A stretch of 64,000 nt of DNA from Seonamhaeicola sediminis (GTDB taxonomy: Bacteria > Bacteroidota > Bacteroidia > Flavobacteriales > Flavobacteriaceae), in the NCBI RefSeq assembly GCF_004358095.2, contig NZ_SMZJ02000002.1:248001-312000 (forward strand), read 5' to 3'. Below the pieces are notes generated by a model, which was given only the letters and a program-made list of their open reading frames with translations, was not told where the DNA came from and did not search any database. This document shows positions 9,624-17,029 of this stretch, piece by piece (the first letter of the stretch is position 1; each line of letters starts with the position of its first letter). The translations under genes and the position numbers were made by a program.

Positions 9624-12596
9624 CTAATTATAAACAAATTCATCTAGTGTGGCTTTGCTTTGCAGTTCAAATAATTTGATGACCCTAACAGATTTAGTTT
9701 CATTGGGTTTTGCAAAGTTTTTATAAACCGTATACTTTAAATAGGTTGGATTTTGAGTTTCTTCTCCTTTTAAATTTTTAATATTAATAAGCCATTTTCC
9801 AGGTTCAGCATCATCAATAAAAAACTCTTCTGTTTGATACCCTTTTTGTATGCCATCTAATATTCGTTCTTTTTTTGAAAATTCCGAAAGTTCCCAAGTA
9901 AAATATTTATTATCAGGATTTACAAATTGTAATTCAAACTCTGCCAACGGATTATTCCATTCAAAAACAAAACGCATATCTTTTTTAAAGTTTAAACTTA
10001 ACAAATCAGGAGACAAATCATTATAATCAACTTCTGCTTTATGTAACATCACTAAATGTCTAAGTTCATTTTCTATAACACTTCTCAATCCTGAAAAATC
10101 AACTTCAGGAATTGTGCCTAAAAGCATTTGTTTATACAATAACATAGCTTTATTATAATTTCCTGTATTTTGATAAGCCAAAGCCATATCTCTGTATGAT
10201 TGCGCTTGTTTAGGGTTTAACTCCAATATTCTTTTATATATAAACCTAGCTTCTTCATATTTGTTTAATGCTTCTAACTTATATGCTAACGTTTTCAATG
10301 CTTTAACATTATTATAGGCAATATCTGCAATACTAGTAAGAATATTGTAGGCTTTTGTAGAATCCCATCTTTCAAAATATTCTGAAGCATCAAAATAAAA
10401 GAAAATTGGCAACTGTTCAAATCTGGTTTTTTGTGCTTCATAAATTTGCAATGCTTCATTAAATGATGATGCCGCATATAATTCATTTACAAAATTAGAA
10501 ACTTTTGAATTGGTTTCAGGATAGAATTTTGTTTGGTCATAATCGTTACCTGTTAATAACGCCCAATTTTTTAATTGCTCTTCAGAACTAAATTCTGAAG
10601 TTTTGGTAGTAACTAAAATAGCACCTCCAGCAGCATCAGACCCAAACCTATTAATTCCAGCTAGCGATCTTAAAACAGTAATTGACTTTATGTTTTGTGG
10701 AGATAAATTCAAGTAATTCAAACTATATAATCCATCAACAAAAACAGCTGGTGGAGTCCTTTTATCTCTTATCCAAATATTAGCATTAATGGGAGTTCCA
10801 GATACATTTACTCCAGGTGTTCTGCGTAAAACATCAACAAAATAAATATCTGAGGGACGGATATCATTTTCACTTATGTAATTAGATGCATAACCTAATT
10901 TTCTGTTACCAAGCCTAGCAATATTATCATTATCGTTAGATTTTTCATTTATACCACTTACACTAATCTCTTCAAGAAACTCTATATTTAACTCTAAATC
11001 AATATCGATATTCTTTTTATTTGATACTGTTATTGCCTTTTGTTTTACTCCAAAATAATTAACCAATAAAATATCACCATAATCTGCTTTTATTTCATAT
11101 TTACCTTCTTCATCGGTAAAAACCTCATCATATGTATTTTTAATACTTACTGAAACACCTTCAAGAGGCCCTGATTTGCTTTGTACTACTCCGTAAATAG
11201 TATTTCTGTTATCCAAAACACTTGCTTCATCATATACTGTTTTATCTAAAATATCAAACTCCATGTATCTCAAAGCAGAAGAAATTGAGGTTTTATTCAG
11301 ATTAACATAACTTGCATCTGAGCTTTGAGAAATCTCTTGTAAAACTTTATGGTTTGTTTTATAATTTGAGCTAATACAAAATATGGGATTTCTGAAGTTA
11401 TACTCGAAATCTGATAAAGTTGAATACCCATCACCAAAAAGCATTACAATGTCAGAATTAAACGAATTTTTTGAAAATACATCGGTAAAACTAGTTCCTG
11501 CTTCGTAAGTTGTGTTTTTTAAGTGATTAAGCAGTAACTCACTCTCTCCTTTTTTGACTTCAAATGTTTTATCGCTTGTTATTTCCATATTAAACTTTAC
11601 TACCCTTACTTTAACATTCTTAATTGTATTTAAATAGGTTTTTAAAAATTCAAATTCTTTATTAATATTTCTATTTAAAAACATAGATTCAGAATTGTCC
11701 CAAAGAATGGTTATGGTATTAGGCTTCGTTCTTTTTTCTATTTTGTTGTACTTTTTTGGAAAAGATGTTAATACCTGAAAAGACATTGTGGCATCTTTTA
11801 TTTCCTCCCACTTATCTTGACTTATGTAACGAGTGAAGGTAGTTCCTGAGCCAATACCAGCCACAACAAACCCTACTTTATCACCAAATACCTCAACTAG
11901 TTCAATACTAACTATAATATCATTATCTACTTTGATATTATATGGTTTTAAGTTAATGGTATCAATACCTATTTTCTTGGTTACAACATGAAAAATATTA
12001 GTACTTAGCAAGTTTTTATTGGGAAGCTTTTTGTTGGAATCATAAATATTTACTCTTAATTTAATGCTGTCGGAAATATTTTCTAAAATCCTTAACTTTA
12101 AATCTAATAATTTAGAGTCCTTTTTATTTATTTTAAGTCTTGTTGCAATTTCACCTCCAAGTGCAACCTCTTCTTTCCAATAACCTATTGTATAACCATC
12201 AAAATCTAAACCACCTACTTGCTTTTTCTCGGTTTCAGGTGCAGTAATTATTAATTCATCTAAACTTTGAATGTCGGGTTGTAAGTATATTTTGTTGGTG
12301 TTTGATAATTTTGAAAATAAATCTGGAGCCTTTATTTTTAAGGTTTTATATCCTAATGAAGAAAATTGTAATACATCAAAATTTCTAATGTAATCTTCTT
12401 CATATTGCAATTTAAAACTGCCTTTTTCATTACTTGCTGTACCAATACTTTTATCAACAAAACCAATATTTACATATGGTATCGGCTGATTTGTAGATTT
12501 ATCTAATACAAAAGCATCAATAGTGATAATATCCTGTGAAAAAACTTGATTATATCCAAACAGAAGGAGTAGTATAAATACTAATATCTTATTCAT
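9624..12596 (-). CDS. mosaic exported protein: carboxypeptidase-regulatory-like, VWA, TonB plug, TPR
   Basis: A signal peptide (ending VFSQ) precedes, in order: a carboxypeptidase-D-regulatory-like beta sandwich (about 24-105), a beta-rich region (about 147-270), a von Willebrand A-like domain with the MIDAS start DNSES near residue 298 (about 293-460), a second regulatory-like sandwich (about 466-545), a TonB-plug-like domain (about 575-670; VDVLRRTPGVNV, then AVFVDG and GAILVTTK), TPR repeats (about 720-860) and a C-terminal beta domain. There is no 22-strand barrel, so it is not a transporter. It is probably periplasmic or surface-exposed; the role is unknown. Confidence 0.75.
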   Translation of the reverse strand: MNKILVFILLLLFGYNQVFSQDIITIDAFVLDKSTNQPIPYVNIGFVDKSIGTASNEKGSFKLQYEEDYIRNFDVLQFSSLGYKTLKIKAPDLFSKLSNTNKIYLQPDIQSLDELIITAPETEKKQVGGLDFDGYTIGYWKEEVALGGEIATRLKINKKDSKLLDLKLRILENISDSIKLRVNIYDSNKKLPNKNLLSTNIFHVVTKKIGIDTINLKPYNIKVDNDIIVSIELVEVFGDKVGFVVAGIGSGTTFTRYISQDKWEEIKDATMSFQVLTSFPKKYNKIEKRTKPNTITILWDNSESMFLNRNINKEFEFLKTYLNTIKNVKVRVVKFNMEITSDKTFEVKKGESELLLNHLKNTTYEAGTSFTDVFSKNSFNSDIVMLFGDGYSTLSDFEYNFRNPIFCISSNYKTNHKVLQEISQSSDASYVNLNKTSISSALRYMEFDILDKTVYDEASVLDNRNTIYGVVQSKSGPLEGVSVSIKNTYDEVFTDEEGKYEIKADYGDILLVNYFGVKQKAITVSNKKNIDIDLELNIEFLEEISVSGINEKSNDNDNIARLGNRKLGYASNYISENDIRPSDIYFVDVLRRTPGVNVSGTPINANIWIRDKRTPPAVFVDGLYSLNYLNLSPQNIKSITVLRSLAGINRFGSDAAGGAILVTTKTSEFSSEEQLKNWALLTGNDYDQTKFYPETNSKVSNFVNELYAASSFNEALQIYEAQKTRFEQLPIFFYFDASEYFERWDSTKAYNILTSIADIAYNNVKALKTLAYKLEALNKYEEARFIYKRILELNPKQAQSYRDMALAYQNTGNYNKAMLLYKQMLLGTIPEVDFSGLRSVIENELRHLVMLHKAEVDYNDLSPDLLSLNFKKDMRFVFEWNNPLAEFELQFVNPDNKYFTWELSEFSKKERILDGIQKGYQTEEFFIDDAEPGKWLINIKNLKGEETQNPTYLKYTVYKNFAKPNETKSVRVIKLFELQSKATLDEFVYN

Positions 12597-12762
12597 CTAC
12601 CTTTATAATTGAAAAATTTATTTTAAAAATAAACTAATAAAACCCCTTTACCGTAATATAATTAGTTTTTTAAGAAAAATATAAGATATTACGATGTAAG
12701 ACGAAAAGCCCTAAAAGATATTGATTATTTTAGAGCTTGAAATTTATAAACTTAAGGTTAAG

Positions 12763-13638
12763 TTAACCAATTATTTGCTTAATTTCCTTGCGGTAATTAG
12801 AGGCACTTTTACCTATAACTTCATTAAACTGTTTATTAAAATGTGAAAAATTGTTGAATCCACATTCAAAACAGATATCAGCAATACTCAACTGACTTTC
12901 ATTAAGTAGCTTAGTAGCATGTACAATTCTAATCTCATTAACCACTTGGGTAAACGTTTTTCCAGTAGTTTTCTTAAAATATCTACAAAAAGCAGGTACT
13001 GTCATACTCACCTTGTTAGCAATATCTTCTAAGGCTATATGCTCTTTAAAATTGACATTTACATATTTATAAATGGTCTTAATCTTATCAGTATCTTGAG
13101 GTTCTGCTTCAAATACAAAGCCATCGGCATTTAAAATGGTATAATCTTCTGTAGTAGCTAAGTATTGCAATATTTCCAAAAGTTTCAAAACCCTTTCAAA
13201 GCCTGTATGGTTTTCTAAATCTTCAATTTTTTTTCCTACCGCATCCTTAGCCTCTCTTCCAAACTTAATACCATTTTTGGCTTTTTCAAATAAAGACGCT
13301 ATCGCAATTGCTTCTGGCACATTATTAAGAAAATCTTCACCTAAAAATTCTGGTTTAAATTGAATAGTGGTTTCAATACCAGCAGCTGTTAATCTATCTG
13401 TAAAACCATTATGTGGTAAATTTGACCCTATTAGGATAAGTTGGCTATTATTAAAGTAGGACAAGTGATTGCCAATGTGTGTTTTTCCCTGTCCTCTGTT
13501 TACGTATATAAGTTCTATTTCTGGGTGAAAATGCCAGAACATTTCACTCCTATCTTGCTTATCGTTGTGTTGTTTCACCAAAATAGAATTACCAAAAGTT
13601 GGTGACAACTTTTTAAATGTAGGTTTCTTAGTTATCAT
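12763..13638 (-). CDS. AraC family transcriptional regulator, cupin type
   Basis: An N-terminal cupin (MFWHFHPEIELIYVNRGQG, about residues 25-110 from this start) is typical of sugar- or small-molecule-sensing AraC regulators. The C-terminal two-helix-turn-helix domain is complete (IADICFECGFNNFSHFNKQF, ending ASNYRKE). The frame is open upstream to 13740, but a good -7 box at 13659-13666 places the transcription start downstream of that ATG. I therefore choose the ATG at 13638 (291 residues). It is divergent from the secreted paralogue island and may regulate it; that is inference. Confidence 0.87.
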   Translation of the reverse strand: MITKKPTFKKLSPTFGNSILVKQHNDKQDRSEMFWHFHPEIELIYVNRGQGKTHIGNHLSYFNNSQLILIGSNLPHNGFTDRLTAAGIETTIQFKPEFLGEDFLNNVPEAIAIASLFEKAKNGIKFGREAKDAVGKKIEDLENHTGFERVLKLLEILQYLATTEDYTILNADGFVFEAEPQDTDKIKTIYKYVNVNFKEHIALEDIANKVSMTVPAFCRYFKKTTGKTFTQVVNEIRIVHATKLLNESQLSIADICFECGFNNFSHFNKQFNEVIGKSASNYRKEIKQIIG

Positions 13639-13658
13639 ATTGGGTAATCTTTTGTGTG

Positions 13659-13666
13659 CAAAATTA
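13659..13666 (-). promoter_or_regulatory. -7 box for the cupin AraC gene
   Basis: Minus-strand TAATTTTG matches TAnnTTTG and lies 21 bases before the ATG at 13638. It decides the start choice against the upstream ATG at 13740. Confidence 0.55.
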
Positions 13667-13807
13667 CAATATATTATGCGTACATTATACATATAATTAC
13701 CATAAACGTGTGTTAAATTAACTTTAAAGCTATTTAACAAATCCTTAACTGTTAATATAGCATATAAATTAGCTAAAATTGATGTTTTTTGACCCTAATA
13801 TGTAACA

Positions 13808-13815
13808 TATATTTG
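13808..13815 (+). promoter_or_regulatory. -7 box of the decayed paralogue unit
   Basis: TATATTTG is an exact TAnnTTTG match, with a TTG at 13789-13791 sixteen bases upstream. No intact gene follows, only about 140 bases and then a terminator. Confidence 0.45.
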
Positions 13816-13838
13816 TACCATAAAGTTTTAGTTAAGTT

Positions 13839-13980
13839 ATGAAACAATAATTGAAGCAAAGAAAATCAAAGGTCTTACTTCAATTTAAGAATAAAAAGAT
13901 TTCATAAATACATTAATAATTAGTTTAATGTCTTATTTAGTTTAGTTGGTAGAGTGGGCTGTGGTGGCCCACTTTTTTTT
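13839..13980 (+). pseudogene. decayed third copy of the secreted paralogue, or short non-coding RNA
   Basis: After a promoter-like box the sequence has an ATG followed two codons later by a stop. In another frame it then ends as ...RFHKYINN-stop, matching the last codons of the paralogue at 14291 (TKFINN) and that at 15294 (IKYINK). From 13911 to 13980 the sequence, including stop codon, spacer and terminator, is nearly identical to 14866-14935. The body of the gene is missing. Either it is a deletion remnant or the roughly 150-base transcript is itself functional. Confidence 0.55.
13953..13980 (+). terminator. Rho-independent terminator of the decayed unit
   Basis: Stem AGTGGGC/GCCCACT with a seven-base loop and a run of seven T. 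Nearly identical to the terminator at 14907. Confidence 0.8.
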
Positions 13981-14140
13981 GCATGAACTTTATTCAACAA
14001 TTAAAAACTTACTTCGTTTAATAACAAAAAACTTTGCTAAGATCTTCTGCTTAAATATTTTTTGATTTATCGTTGATAACAATGGTTTTTACCCAAAGGA
14101 ATAAGACACGTATCCTCATAGTGTTTTTCTTTGAAATATA
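13981..14140. other. non-coding stretch with nothing recognised
   Basis: A/T-rich spacer between the decayed unit's terminator and the start of the repeated promoter segment. No ORF, hairpin or RNA gene is visible. Confidence 0.5.
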
Positions 14141-14356
14141 TATTATTAACCCTACAATATACTATTTTAACTTAACACAAACTTATTATACATTTAACAG
14201 ATAATATAGGACATAAATTAATCAATTTCAATGTTTTACACGCTATTTATCTACTATACATTTGCAGTGTAAAACGTTAAAAACCAAATCATGAAAAACG
14301 TATTTTCAAACACTAAAAAAGGAATCTTAATGGTAGCAATGATGGCTACGGTTATG
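14141..14356 (+). repeat. direct repeat copy A: promoter, leader and signal-peptide codons
   Basis: About 216 bases are repeated at 15144-15359 with an offset of 1003 bases and only two clear mismatches (a/c near 14220, g/a near 14242) before divergence at 14356. The repeat covers the upstream region, the -7 box and the first 21 codons. Confidence 0.9.
14257..14264 (+). promoter_or_regulatory. -7 box of secreted paralogue 1
   Basis: TACATTTG, an exact TAnnTTTG match, 27 bases before the ATG at 14291. The same box occurs in the repeat upstream of paralogue 2. Confidence 0.6.
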
Positions 14357-14875
14357 GGTTTTGCTAATGACGGTGAATTAATTGTAAAAGATGCTAAAAG
14401 AACTTCCTTAACGTTTAAAAACGTAAAAGAAGGTAACTCACTTACAATAAAAGATGCTAACGGTCTTACTTTATATAAGGAGTTAATTAAAAAATCAGGA
14501 GTTTACTCAAAAGGGTTTGACTTAAGAGCACTACCAGATGGTATTTACTTTTTTGAACTAGAAAAAGATGTTGAAATTAAAACCATTCCTTTTTCGGTAT
14601 CTCATAATAAGGTAACGTTCAATAAAGAATCAGAAACTCTATACAACAAACCCATAGTAGTTGTTAAAAAAGATATGTTATACATTACTAAAATTGATTC
14701 TAACTACGAACCTTTTACAATAAGCCTATTTGGCAAAAATAGTGGTGAATTGTTATATACTGAAACCGTTACAAATACTTGTGTTATTGAGAAAGTTTAT
14801 AAGCTAAAAGCGGGAAATTATAAATTAGTATTAAATTCTAATAATAAATATTTTACAAAATTCATTAATAATTAG
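14291..14875 (+). CDS. secreted hypothetical protein, paralogue 1
   Basis: A signal peptide (hydrophobic core GILMVAMMATVMGFA) is followed by about 170 residues of two repeated-looking beta domains. The first (about 37-105) contains LTIKDANGLTLYKE, GFDL and LPDGIYFFE. The second (about 127-190) contains PFTISLFGK, ELLYTET and LKAGNYKLV. The pattern resembles the beta sandwich found in type IX secretion C-terminal domains, but no sorting signal is clear. It is roughly 45 percent identical to the next gene over the mature part and identical in the first 21 residues. Flavobacteriaceae have many such proteins of unknown function. Confidence 0.8.
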   Translation: MKNVFSNTKKGILMVAMMATVMGFANDGELIVKDAKRTSLTFKNVKEGNSLTIKDANGLTLYKELIKKSGVYSKGFDLRALPDGIYFFELEKDVEIKTIPFSVSHNKVTFNKESETLYNKPIVVVKKDMLYITKIDSNYEPFTISLFGKNSGELLYTETVTNTCVIEKVYKLKAGNYKLVLNSNNKYFTKFINN

Positions 14876-14906
14876 TTTTAATGTCTTATTTAGTTTAGTT
14901 GGTAGA

Positions 14907-14935
14907 AGTGGGCTGTGGTAGCCCACTTTTTTTTT
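14907..14935 (+). terminator. Rho-independent terminator of paralogue 1
   Basis: Stem AGTGGGC/GCCCACT, seven-base loop, then a run of eight or nine T. It differs from the upstream copy only in the loop. Confidence 0.85.
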
Positions 14936-15143
14936 ATCAAAAATTTACACATAACTTCTTTGTTTTCTTTTTTGGCAACCTCTCCTCTCTTATAAACTCC
15001 TTTTACTTTAGCTGTATTGTAATAAAAGTAATTTAACTTTCTCAAGTCAAGCAATACAATTTCATAATAGAATTTTTAATTCTATAACTGCTATCAAAAT
15101 AAAACTAACAACATCATGAAAGAATCCTTTTCTTAAAAGTATG
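14936..15143. other. non-coding spacer with one small inverted repeat
   Basis: No ORF or RNA gene is visible. At 15067-15085 there is a perfect 8-bp inverted repeat AATAGAAT-type arm pair (ATAGAATT and AATTCTAT around TTT). It has no T-run and no obvious role. Confidence 0.45.
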
Positions 15144-15359
15144 TATTATTAACCCTACAATATACTATTTTAACTTAACACAAACTTATTATACATTTAA
15201 CAGATAATATAGGACATAAATTCATCAATTTCAATGTTTTACACACTATTTATCTACTATACATTTGCAGTGTAAAACGTTAAAAACCAAATCATGAAAA
15301 ACGTATTTTCAAACACTAAAAAAGGAATCTTAATGGTAGCAATGATGGCTACGGTTATA
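15144..15359 (+). repeat. direct repeat copy B: promoter, leader and signal-peptide codons
   Basis: Second copy of the segment at 14141-14356, with an offset of 1003 bases. Identity ends abruptly at codon 22 of the downstream gene. Confidence 0.9.
15260..15267 (+). promoter_or_regulatory. -7 box of secreted paralogue 2
   Basis: TACATTTG inside repeat copy B, 27 bases before the ATG at 15294. Confidence 0.6.
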
Positions 15360-15890
15360 GGTTACGCAAACGAGATGTCTTTAGTTAATTATGGAAGAGA
15401 TCTGAGAGCAACAGCATTAACAATTACTAATGCAAAAGAAGGAGACTTACTTTCTATTAAAGATGGTTACGGTACTACTCTATATAAAGAAATTATTGAA
15501 CAGACTGGTACATATAATAAAGGTTTTGATTTAACCGACCTACCTGATGGAGAGTATTTCTTTGAAATAGATAAGGATATGGAAATTAATTCTATTCCCT
15601 TTTCTGTAAAATCTAGTGCAGTAACCTTTAAAAAAGAAAAGGAGACTACAGTATTTAAACCGTATGTTAGAGAGGAGTATGATTTAGTGTATATCACTAA
15701 ATTAGCACCAAACAAAGAACCGTTATCTGTTAAAATATACGGTCTTTATAATGGTGTTTCAGAATTGTTATACACAGAAACTATTGAAGGTATTCAAAAC
15801 ATAGAAAGAGCTTTTAAGCTTTATGAAGGGGAATACAAATTAGTTTTTGCTTCTAACGATAGAGAATTTATAAAATACATTAATAAATAG
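15294..15890 (+). CDS. secreted hypothetical protein, paralogue 2
   Basis: The same architecture as the gene at 14291: identical 21-residue signal region, then two beta domains with conserved landmarks LSIKDGYGTTLYKE, GFDL, LPDGEYFFE, SIPFSVK, ELLYTET and EGEYKLVFAS. The mature part has diverged strongly and gained a few residues (198 in total). It ends with its own, different terminator. Function unknown. Confidence 0.8.
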   Translation: MKNVFSNTKKGILMVAMMATVIGYANEMSLVNYGRDLRATALTITNAKEGDLLSIKDGYGTTLYKEIIEQTGTYNKGFDLTDLPDGEYFFEIDKDMEINSIPFSVKSSAVTFKKEKETTVFKPYVREEYDLVYITKLAPNKEPLSVKIYGLYNGVSELLYTETIEGIQNIERAFKLYEGEYKLVFASNDREFIKYINK

Positions 15891-15925
15891 TTTACTCAAG
15901 TAGTTCTTATTTTGTTAAGTTTCTA

Positions 15926-15956
15926 AAAGCGGGCCTATTTAAGCCCGCTTTCTTTT
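15926..15956. terminator. terminator between paralogue 2 and the radical SAM gene
   Basis: Stem AAAGCGGGC/GCCCGCTTT with an eight-base loop and a following T-rich run on the plus strand. It reaches the stop codon of the convergent radical SAM gene and may act in both directions. Confidence 0.75.
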
Positions 15957-17029
15957 TAAAAAAACTTTAGCTGCCTGGTTTTGTGTTGCTCATGTAAATC
16001 ACAATTAAGTTTGGGCATGCGCTTTTCTTTAAAGTATTTCCGTTTTGCTAAGAGCATTAGGTTTGTAATCTGTTCTGCTATTTTGCCTTCACCTCGCATT
16101 CTAGTTCCAAATCTACTATCATTTAAAGTACCTCCGTGGCAATTTTCAATTTGATGCAACACTTTATCAGCACTATCAGGCAACGTCTTCTTAATCCAAT
16201 CTGTAAAAATACCACCAATAGCTCCATTGAGTCTAACTAAAGTGTGTGCTATGGCGTTAGCACCATGCTCTGAAGCCGCTTTTGCTAATGGTAAAATTTC
16301 ATGACTATTTATTGATGGAATAATTGGTGCTATCATAACATTTACTGGAACACCATTATTTGTAAGGGTTTTAACAGTTTCCAAACGCTTTTTTATGGTG
16401 GTTGTTCTTGGTTCTAAAACACGTCTTGTTTTTTCTGAAAGTGATGTTACAGATAGATTAACAGCTATCAAATTATTCTTAGCCAGTTCCTTTATTAGGT
16501 CAAGATCACGTAAGATCTGTGAATTTTTGGTGATGATACCTACAGGATGTTTGTGTTTTAAAAACACTTCCAAACACTGTCTGGTTATTTTATAAATTTG
16601 TTCGGCAGGTTGATAGCAATCGGTATTGCCAGACATTACTATAGGATGCGCTTTCCAGTGCTTCTTTTGTATGAAAGCCTCTAGTAATTTTGGCGCCTCT
16701 TTTTTTACTAAAATTCGTCTTTCAAAATCTAAACCAGCACTGTAACCCCAATATTCATGTGTGTTTCTGGCATAGCAATACACACAACCATGCTCACAAC
16801 CTTGATATGCATTCATGGAGTATGACATCCCTATATCTGGACTAGTTACTTTATTTACTATGGTTTTAGGAAATACCTCCAGATAGCGTGTTTTATTTTT
16901 ATCAGCTTGTTCGCCTTCTTTTTGGCAATATTCAAGAAAATCATCACGCATTTCATGACTTAATTCAAAGAAACGATTAGGGACGTTAAGCTGTGCGCCA
17001 CGTCCTTTTATAACAGACTTGGGGTTCAT
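15956..17029 (-). CDS. radical SAM protein, PA0069/SplB-like family
   Basis: A radical SAM [4Fe-4S] motif is present as CEHGCVYCYARN (CxxxCxxC spacing) near residue 78. The context MNAYQGCEHGC and the later segments MSGNTDCYQPAE and VNVMIAPIIPSIN are typical of the PA0069 family of spore-photoproduct-lyase-like proteins. Length, 357 residues, is usual. Its natural substrate is not established. It is convergent with the paralogue island and divergent from the methyltransferase gene. Confidence 0.88.
   Translation of the reverse strand: MNPKSVIKGRGAQLNVPNRFFELSHEMRDDFLEYCQKEGEQADKNKTRYLEVFPKTIVNKVTSPDIGMSYSMNAYQGCEHGCVYCYARNTHEYWGYSAGLDFERRILVKKEAPKLLEAFIQKKHWKAHPIVMSGNTDCYQPAEQIYKITRQCLEVFLKHKHPVGIITKNSQILRDLDLIKELAKNNLIAVNLSVTSLSEKTRRVLEPRTTTIKKRLETVKTLTNNGVPVNVMIAPIIPSINSHEILPLAKAASEHGANAIAHTLVRLNGAIGGIFTDWIKKTLPDSADKVLHQIENCHGGTLNDSRFGTRMRGEGKIAEQITNLMLLAKRKYFKEKRMPKLNCDLHEQHKTRQLKFF

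Follow-up and report, generated by a model that had tools for sequence, protein, structure and literature searches.

Our analysis of a 64,000-nucleotide stretch of the Seonamhaeicola sediminis genome (the window) points to a small-RNA gene that, on our best reading, derives from a family of secreted-protein genes with which it still shares both ends, and whose presumed product would act in regulation. The unit in question (13745-13980) lies upstream of a tandem array of two coding copies, A and B, 160 bases ahead of the 5' block that these share, and combines a related promoter with the 3' end of copy A and no reading frame. An earlier note on this DNA had described the array as a pair: the two tandem coding copies are indeed there, but the description was incomplete, as this third unit without a coding sequence (CDS) lies directly upstream. 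The features of a stand-alone small RNA gene, as far as they can be read from sequence, are all present (own promoter, intrinsic terminator, absence of a reading frame), and we consider that the CDS-less unit probably is a functional small-RNA gene. It would most likely make a small RNA, with its conserved 3' module serving as the 3'UTR of the sister mRNAs as well. A wider proposal, which we regard as evenly balanced, is that in a clade of the Flavobacteriaceae a protein-coding gene became a small-RNA gene by losing its CDS while keeping promoter and 3' end, that the module exists both as independent transcript and as sister 3'UTR, and that one regulator, perhaps the AraC-type neighbour, yields protein and RNA outputs that end in a common RNA element.

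On the map we propose, the array sits between an araC-type gene that diverges from it and a radical-SAM gene that converges on it. The former (12763-13740, minus strand; Pfam HTH_18, 5.4e-21) is listed from a TTG codon, and an ATG at about 13638 looks the more likely start; 51 of the 56 loci examined, ours among them, had a match to this gene, with 66-96% identity outside our own. Copy A (14291-14875, 194 aa) and copy B (15294-15890, 198 aa), both on the plus strand, open with signal-peptide-like starts. The radical SAM gene (15956-17029, minus strand; Pfam, 2.1e-19) closes the neighbourhood, a synteny not seen in every locus, several stretches ending before that gene. On the far side of the araC-type gene, 9624-12596 encodes a 990-aa protein that matches CarboxypepD_reg, TonB plug and TPR but not a TonB barrel.

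The shared 5' block of copies A and B

Copies A and B have in common a 5' block made up of 150 upstream bases (promoter and 5'UTR) and codons 1-21. Between 14141-14355 and 15144-15358 (both plus strand) 213 of 215 aligned bases are identical, with mismatches at 14220 and 14242, which bears out the near-identity with two mismatches that the earlier note described. The edges are sharp on both sides, matches per 30 bases falling from 26-30 inside the block to 11-18 within one to two windows. While the leader codons are identical, the proteins agree from codon 22 onwards at 88 of 177 positions, and windowed match counts together with the protein alignment thus confirm the drop previously placed at codon 22, at 50% rather than the roughly 45% then given for the mature proteins. 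Synonymous divergence is 0 in the leader (about 12 sites) and 1.49 in the mature part (108 sites); because the leader offers so few synonymous sites, the argument leans mainly on the 150 non-coding bases. In a whole-genome search the block occurred at these two places only, and A and B were the only members of their protein family in the genome (search at E<=1).

Counting the window's own genome, the family turned up at E<=0.001 in 38 of the 98 genomes searched, and all seven genomes of the genus (ours again among them) carry two to three tandem copies. With one genome per species and G005 as the nearest relative for orthologue comparison, identities reverse between the two parts of the gene. 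In the 5' block (-150 to +63) A and B of the same genome are 99% identical, whereas A matches A of G005 at 89% and B matches B of G005 at 85%; in the mature part the paralogues share 60%, the orthologues 82% (A) and 88% (B). Trees conflict in the same manner: the mature part forms an A clade and a B clade throughout the genus (support 100/100 each) and pairs each copy with its own orthologue (100/99), whereas in the 5' tree our A and B pair with each other (99/95) and the A copy of G005 is sister to that pair (96/95). AU tests rejected orthologous pairing for the 5' block (p=0.012 and 0.0002), paralogue pairing for the mature part (p=5e-71) and a single clade of A-type 5' blocks (p=3e-5).

We consider it very probable that gene conversion homogenised the 5' blocks of A and B, as had been proposed from the sharp edge, and regard this as a clean but ordinary case; identity reversal, tree conflict, AU tests and differing tract edges all speak for it. 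Base-by-base alignment, sliding identity, synonymous rates and comparison with related species revealed neither synonymous divergence as low in the mature part as in the 5' part nor one and the same edge fixed in all relatives. Elsewhere in the genus homogenised tracts extend over -122 to +314 (G002) and -266 to +463 (G004), both between B-type copies, while the A/B tracts of G001 and G005 are shorter, eroded and richer in mismatches. Since likeness in the A/B pairs of G000, G001 and G005 begins at about -150 to -120, and resemblance within the B/B pairs of G003 and G004 reaches beyond that point, the left edge would mark the end of recognisable homology between the two intergenic regions; the right edge may be the mere stopping point of that tract. 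We thus envisage an old family of secreted proteins arrayed in tandem, whose copies would recombine by short-tract gene conversion. In the latest event B most likely received its 5' block, comprising promoter, 5'UTR and leader to codon 21-22, from A, at a time when this lineage had already parted from its nearest relative. The direction from A to B is read from one branch and is the most likely one. Since a single A-type 5' clade is rejected, an earlier exchange appears to have given A of this lineage a B-type promoter. G020 (L040:4009-13387) carries five copies over 9 kb with one weak module match (33.5 bits), and its copies 2-4 are partly homogenised.

That the start-codon zone is also alike between paralogues of different species lends some credit to strong purifying selection, acting alone and without exchange, on the promoter and signal peptide that the copies have in common. 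In a permutation test of the longest matching run over polymorphic columns, the A/B run reached 74 (p=0.0002), and two cross-species paralogue pairs had runs of only 23 and 26, yet p=0.0004; as the start-codon zone is conserved anyway, the test is confounded and the specific signal for A/B is run length, not the permutation p-value. Selection of this kind would, however, leave orthologues no less similar than paralogues, which is the reverse of what the 5' block displays (99% against 89% and 85%), and it is at odds with the AU rejection of orthologous pairing there. Pure constraint was rejected on the orthologue comparison and, barring unusually weak constraint in the nearest relative, is to our minds very improbable. 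Unequal crossing-over or a recent duplication that put a new 5' block in front of an old coding part would agree with copy numbers of two to three across the genus, but the flanks of A and B are distinct beyond -150 and the old mature parts stand in the order A, B as in G001 and G005, which leaves this scenario improbable. As for the edge itself, its position near the end of the signal peptide might suit diversifying selection on exposed mature domains, a possibility the earlier note had raised as rapid diversification. It lacks support: A and B are old clades, dN/dS is low (about 0.08 among A orthologues, about 0.19 among B orthologues, 0.27 between the paralogues) and right edges elsewhere fall at +314 and +463. 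We rejected it on dN/dS and rate it the least probable of these alternatives. Our preferred reading remains gene conversion of the 5' blocks between mature parts that are old and constrained and that purifying selection would keep distinct.

Structure prediction gave copy B an all-beta fold, confident outside residues 1-38 (mean pLDDT 78, 10 sequences), and the 50 PDB matches listed by structure search are mostly generic Ig/FnIII-like with TM-scores of 0.33 or less. Against Pfam DUF3244 (PF11589; gathering score 25) the copies stayed below threshold at 24.8 (copy A, a narrow miss) and 15 bits, and matches to the T9SS sorting domain (PF18962, TIGR04183) were below the curated cut-off and covered residues ~41-95 rather than the C-terminus. 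Weak profile resemblance and, for copy B, a predicted all-beta fold are what A and B have in common with DUF3244 and Por_Secre_tail domains, from which they differ in scoring below the curated cut-offs.

The CDS-less unit and its promoter

The upstream unit (plus strand) begins with a 25-nt promoter element (13745-13769), followed by a -7 box TATATTTG (13808-13815) that fits TAnnTTTG, the -7 consensus as given in the text of PMC9723704. From this box we deduce the putative start of a candidate small RNA (13820-13980), most likely about 155 nt long. Its variable interior, some 85 bases without a long reading frame, is followed by a relic of the family's last codons, ATTAATAATTAG, and by the conserved 3' module (13903-13980), in which a small hairpin and a nearly invariant single strand precede a terminator hairpin with conserved loop. 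A start-like codon, too, remains in this unit. The 25-nt element recurs in front of copy A (14194-14218; -7 box TACATTTG at 14257-14264) and copy B (15197-15221). Allowing up to three mismatches, it has three matches in the genome, one per unit, against one for a backward control. With at most one mismatch it has 19 matches in the seven genomes of the genus, all within this locus, the CDS-less units of G003 and G005 carrying it with three mismatches; matches with two to three mismatches occur outside the locus too. In the promoters of A and B the -7 region is flanked by an inverted repeat (14226-14282 and 15229-15285; core GTTTTACAC / GTGTAAAAC) with 25 bases between its arms; the repeat, which some relatives lack in intact form, may be an operator. 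Simple repeats for phase variation were absent from the 5' part, the sole array reported being at 14833-14880 with period 25.

Behind related promoters at the same position, related loci carry a full gene, a decayed gene or a CDS-less unit. The unit of G214 (L107), for instance, retains a leader with an early stop codon and gene relics. In a promoter tree of 14 genomes the araC-adjacent promoters group together at 91/98, under the tool's 95/80 mark, and this irrespective of whether a CDS stands behind them (six) or not (eight), so that the promoter goes with the position, and it is the sequence downstream of it that has changed. Placing the first-gene promoters of G002 and G006 in one clade with the genus's five CDS-less promoters gave p=0.30, a value that neither refutes nor establishes this grouping. 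The araC-adjacent promoter would drive either the first secreted-protein gene or a copy whose coding sequence is gone, and judging by position and the shared promoter element, the AraC-type protein perhaps regulates the locus. In G004 (L037:4260-6270) the CDS-less unit lies about 2.0 kb from the first coding copy, as against about 0.3 kb, and the extra stretch may be an insertion.

The 3' RNA module in the family

Besides closing the CDS-less unit, the module spans the last codons, 3'UTR and terminator of copy A (14855-14934, plus strand) and, in diverged form with its own terminator, the end of copy B (15870-15956, plus strand), which scored 43 bits compared with 102.5 and 105.7 for the other two. 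A 25-nt core of this 3' end, with up to three mismatches, was found only in the CDS-less unit and behind copy A. Our covariance model (79 positions) was derived from 22 sequences taken from this locus and its relatives; these match it by construction. At E<=0.01 it identified the module in 60 of 397 genomes and 42 of 237 genera of the family, though the weakest matches may be due to chance; in an order-wide sample of 296 genomes at E<=0.0001 three matched, our own included, all within the family. Altogether 109 matches in 59 loci and sources were collected, 69 of which end a CDS of 193-223 aa. From the 40 that do not, six were dropped: L123 and L088 lie at contig ends, L041 and L124 immediately follow another module, and L113 and L126 follow a different reading frame of about 80 aa. 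The remaining 34 CDS-less copies belong to 31 of the 52 genomes with matches, and each of these 31 has one CDS-less unit in first place next to the araC-type gene. Of the three left over, G218 and G392 each have one as a second unit, and the last belongs to a separate cluster of G392. With the exception of G057, all units (33 of 34) have TAnnTTTG correctly spaced from the 25-nt element, compared with 6% in shuffles. In L113 (4191-4266) and L126 (4202-4285) the ~80-aa frame with the module behind it lies between araC-type gene and array. A search of 12500-16500 against Rfam 15 returned 13 sub-threshold matches, none at gathering score.

Among the 70 distinct matches above 70 bits every position of UUAAUGUCUUAUUUAGUUUAGU is conserved in 97% or more; as it was the score that decided which rows entered this strong set, the model itself accounts for some of their near-invariance, and conversion among copies may account for some as well. 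The terminator loop is strongly conserved while stem pairs co-change, most clearly at one pair that is G-C in 42 rows and A-U in 26. Among the strong rows both-sided changes affect four of the ten pairs in the terminator and one of the six in the small first hairpin. Across all 92 distinct matches 98.2% of cells pair and 15 of 16 pairs have both-sided changes, above all 500 shuffles and the slid controls, with terminator pairs 99.3% paired and both-sided changes at 9 of 10. The strong-row count is nevertheless the sober one, because the 92-row alignment was fitted to the model and owes its variety largely to weak B-type matches. Just before the module a small hairpin (stem score 6) occurs in 24 of 34 CDS-less copies (71%; shuffles 14%) and in 44% of CDS-linked modules (shuffles 15%); in this genome it is absent at that score. 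Further hairpins were spotted by eye in the interiors of the CDS-less units L089, L095, L096, L045, L087 and L090, their loops, such as GTGGTAG or TTGGTGGTAGA, resembling the terminator loop CTGTGGTGG.

Searches for partners of the module yielded no supported target. Pairing of its core with the array's own 5'UTRs was weaker than with shuffled sequences (mean z +0.62, 69 mRNAs). For the complement of an 18-nt core, with up to three mismatches in seven genomes, forward and reverse counts include the module itself and, among the matches listed, exceed the backward control only in part. One recurring complementary site lies between two ribosomal-protein-like genes, which from their protein letters we take to be rplD and rplW, and is mismatched in G004 and G006, that is in two of the five genomes inspected. 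The two other recurring sites, inspected in G000 only, have no nearby reading frame of 70 aa or more.

Could the CDS-less unit be nothing but a decaying pseudogene with a lingering promoter and terminator? The early stop codon and gene relics of the G214 unit, as well as the start-like codon and last-codon relic seen here, would fit such decay, and promoter and module are the parts that conversion could keep renewing. Mean pairwise identity among eight CDS-less units is, however, 70% in the promoter, 44% in the interior and 88% in the module, and the contrast between interior and module, the promoter box in 33 of 34 units and the presence of such units in 31 of 52 module-bearing genomes argue against it, which makes this reading unlikely, if the most serious competitor. 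A little less likely, in our view, is that the module serves as an efficient terminator only and is conserved for termination. It does contain an intrinsic terminator, yet B-type copies at the same locus have terminators that differ in stem and loop. Moreover, we know of no need of termination for a nearly invariant 22-nt stretch upstream of the terminator. A small-RNA gene that shares its promoter type and 3' end with the secreted-protein genes is what we continue to favour over both.

Comparison with known systems

Work on flavobacterial small RNAs is recent, and the module offers a conserved candidate across many genera that is simple to delete. It is widespread in the sampled genera of the family without a matching Rfam family, and the CDS-less unit may allow one to watch the transition from mRNA gene to small-RNA gene with the RNA end held nearly constant. 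In Flavobacterium psychrophilum 85 new independent RNAs were described in the text of PMC9723704. Neither the module nor the locus was described in the literature searched, and a 17-nt core stretch did not occur in the main texts of the papers searched.

Among paralogues, the nearest parallel to A and B we can name are babA, babB and babC of Helicobacter pylori, whose ends are near-identical around a divergent middle and whose 5' regions undergo conversion, as laid out in the text of PMC4552749. Copies A and B resemble them in identical 5' ends, a diverged mature part and 5' conversion, but are arranged in tandem, whereas bab genes occupy separate loci, and have no simple repeat for phase variation; in addition, the 3' part common to copy A and the CDS-less unit lies mostly outside the protein. 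On the RNA side, CpxQ, SdhX and OppZ are small RNAs derived from mRNA 3' ends (reviewed in the text of PMC9438474). Like these, the module is a conserved 3' end of an mRNA that finishes in an intrinsic terminator. It differs in that it also stands as a separate CDS-less unit behind the promoter type of the mRNA genes, and in being known here from its sequence alone.
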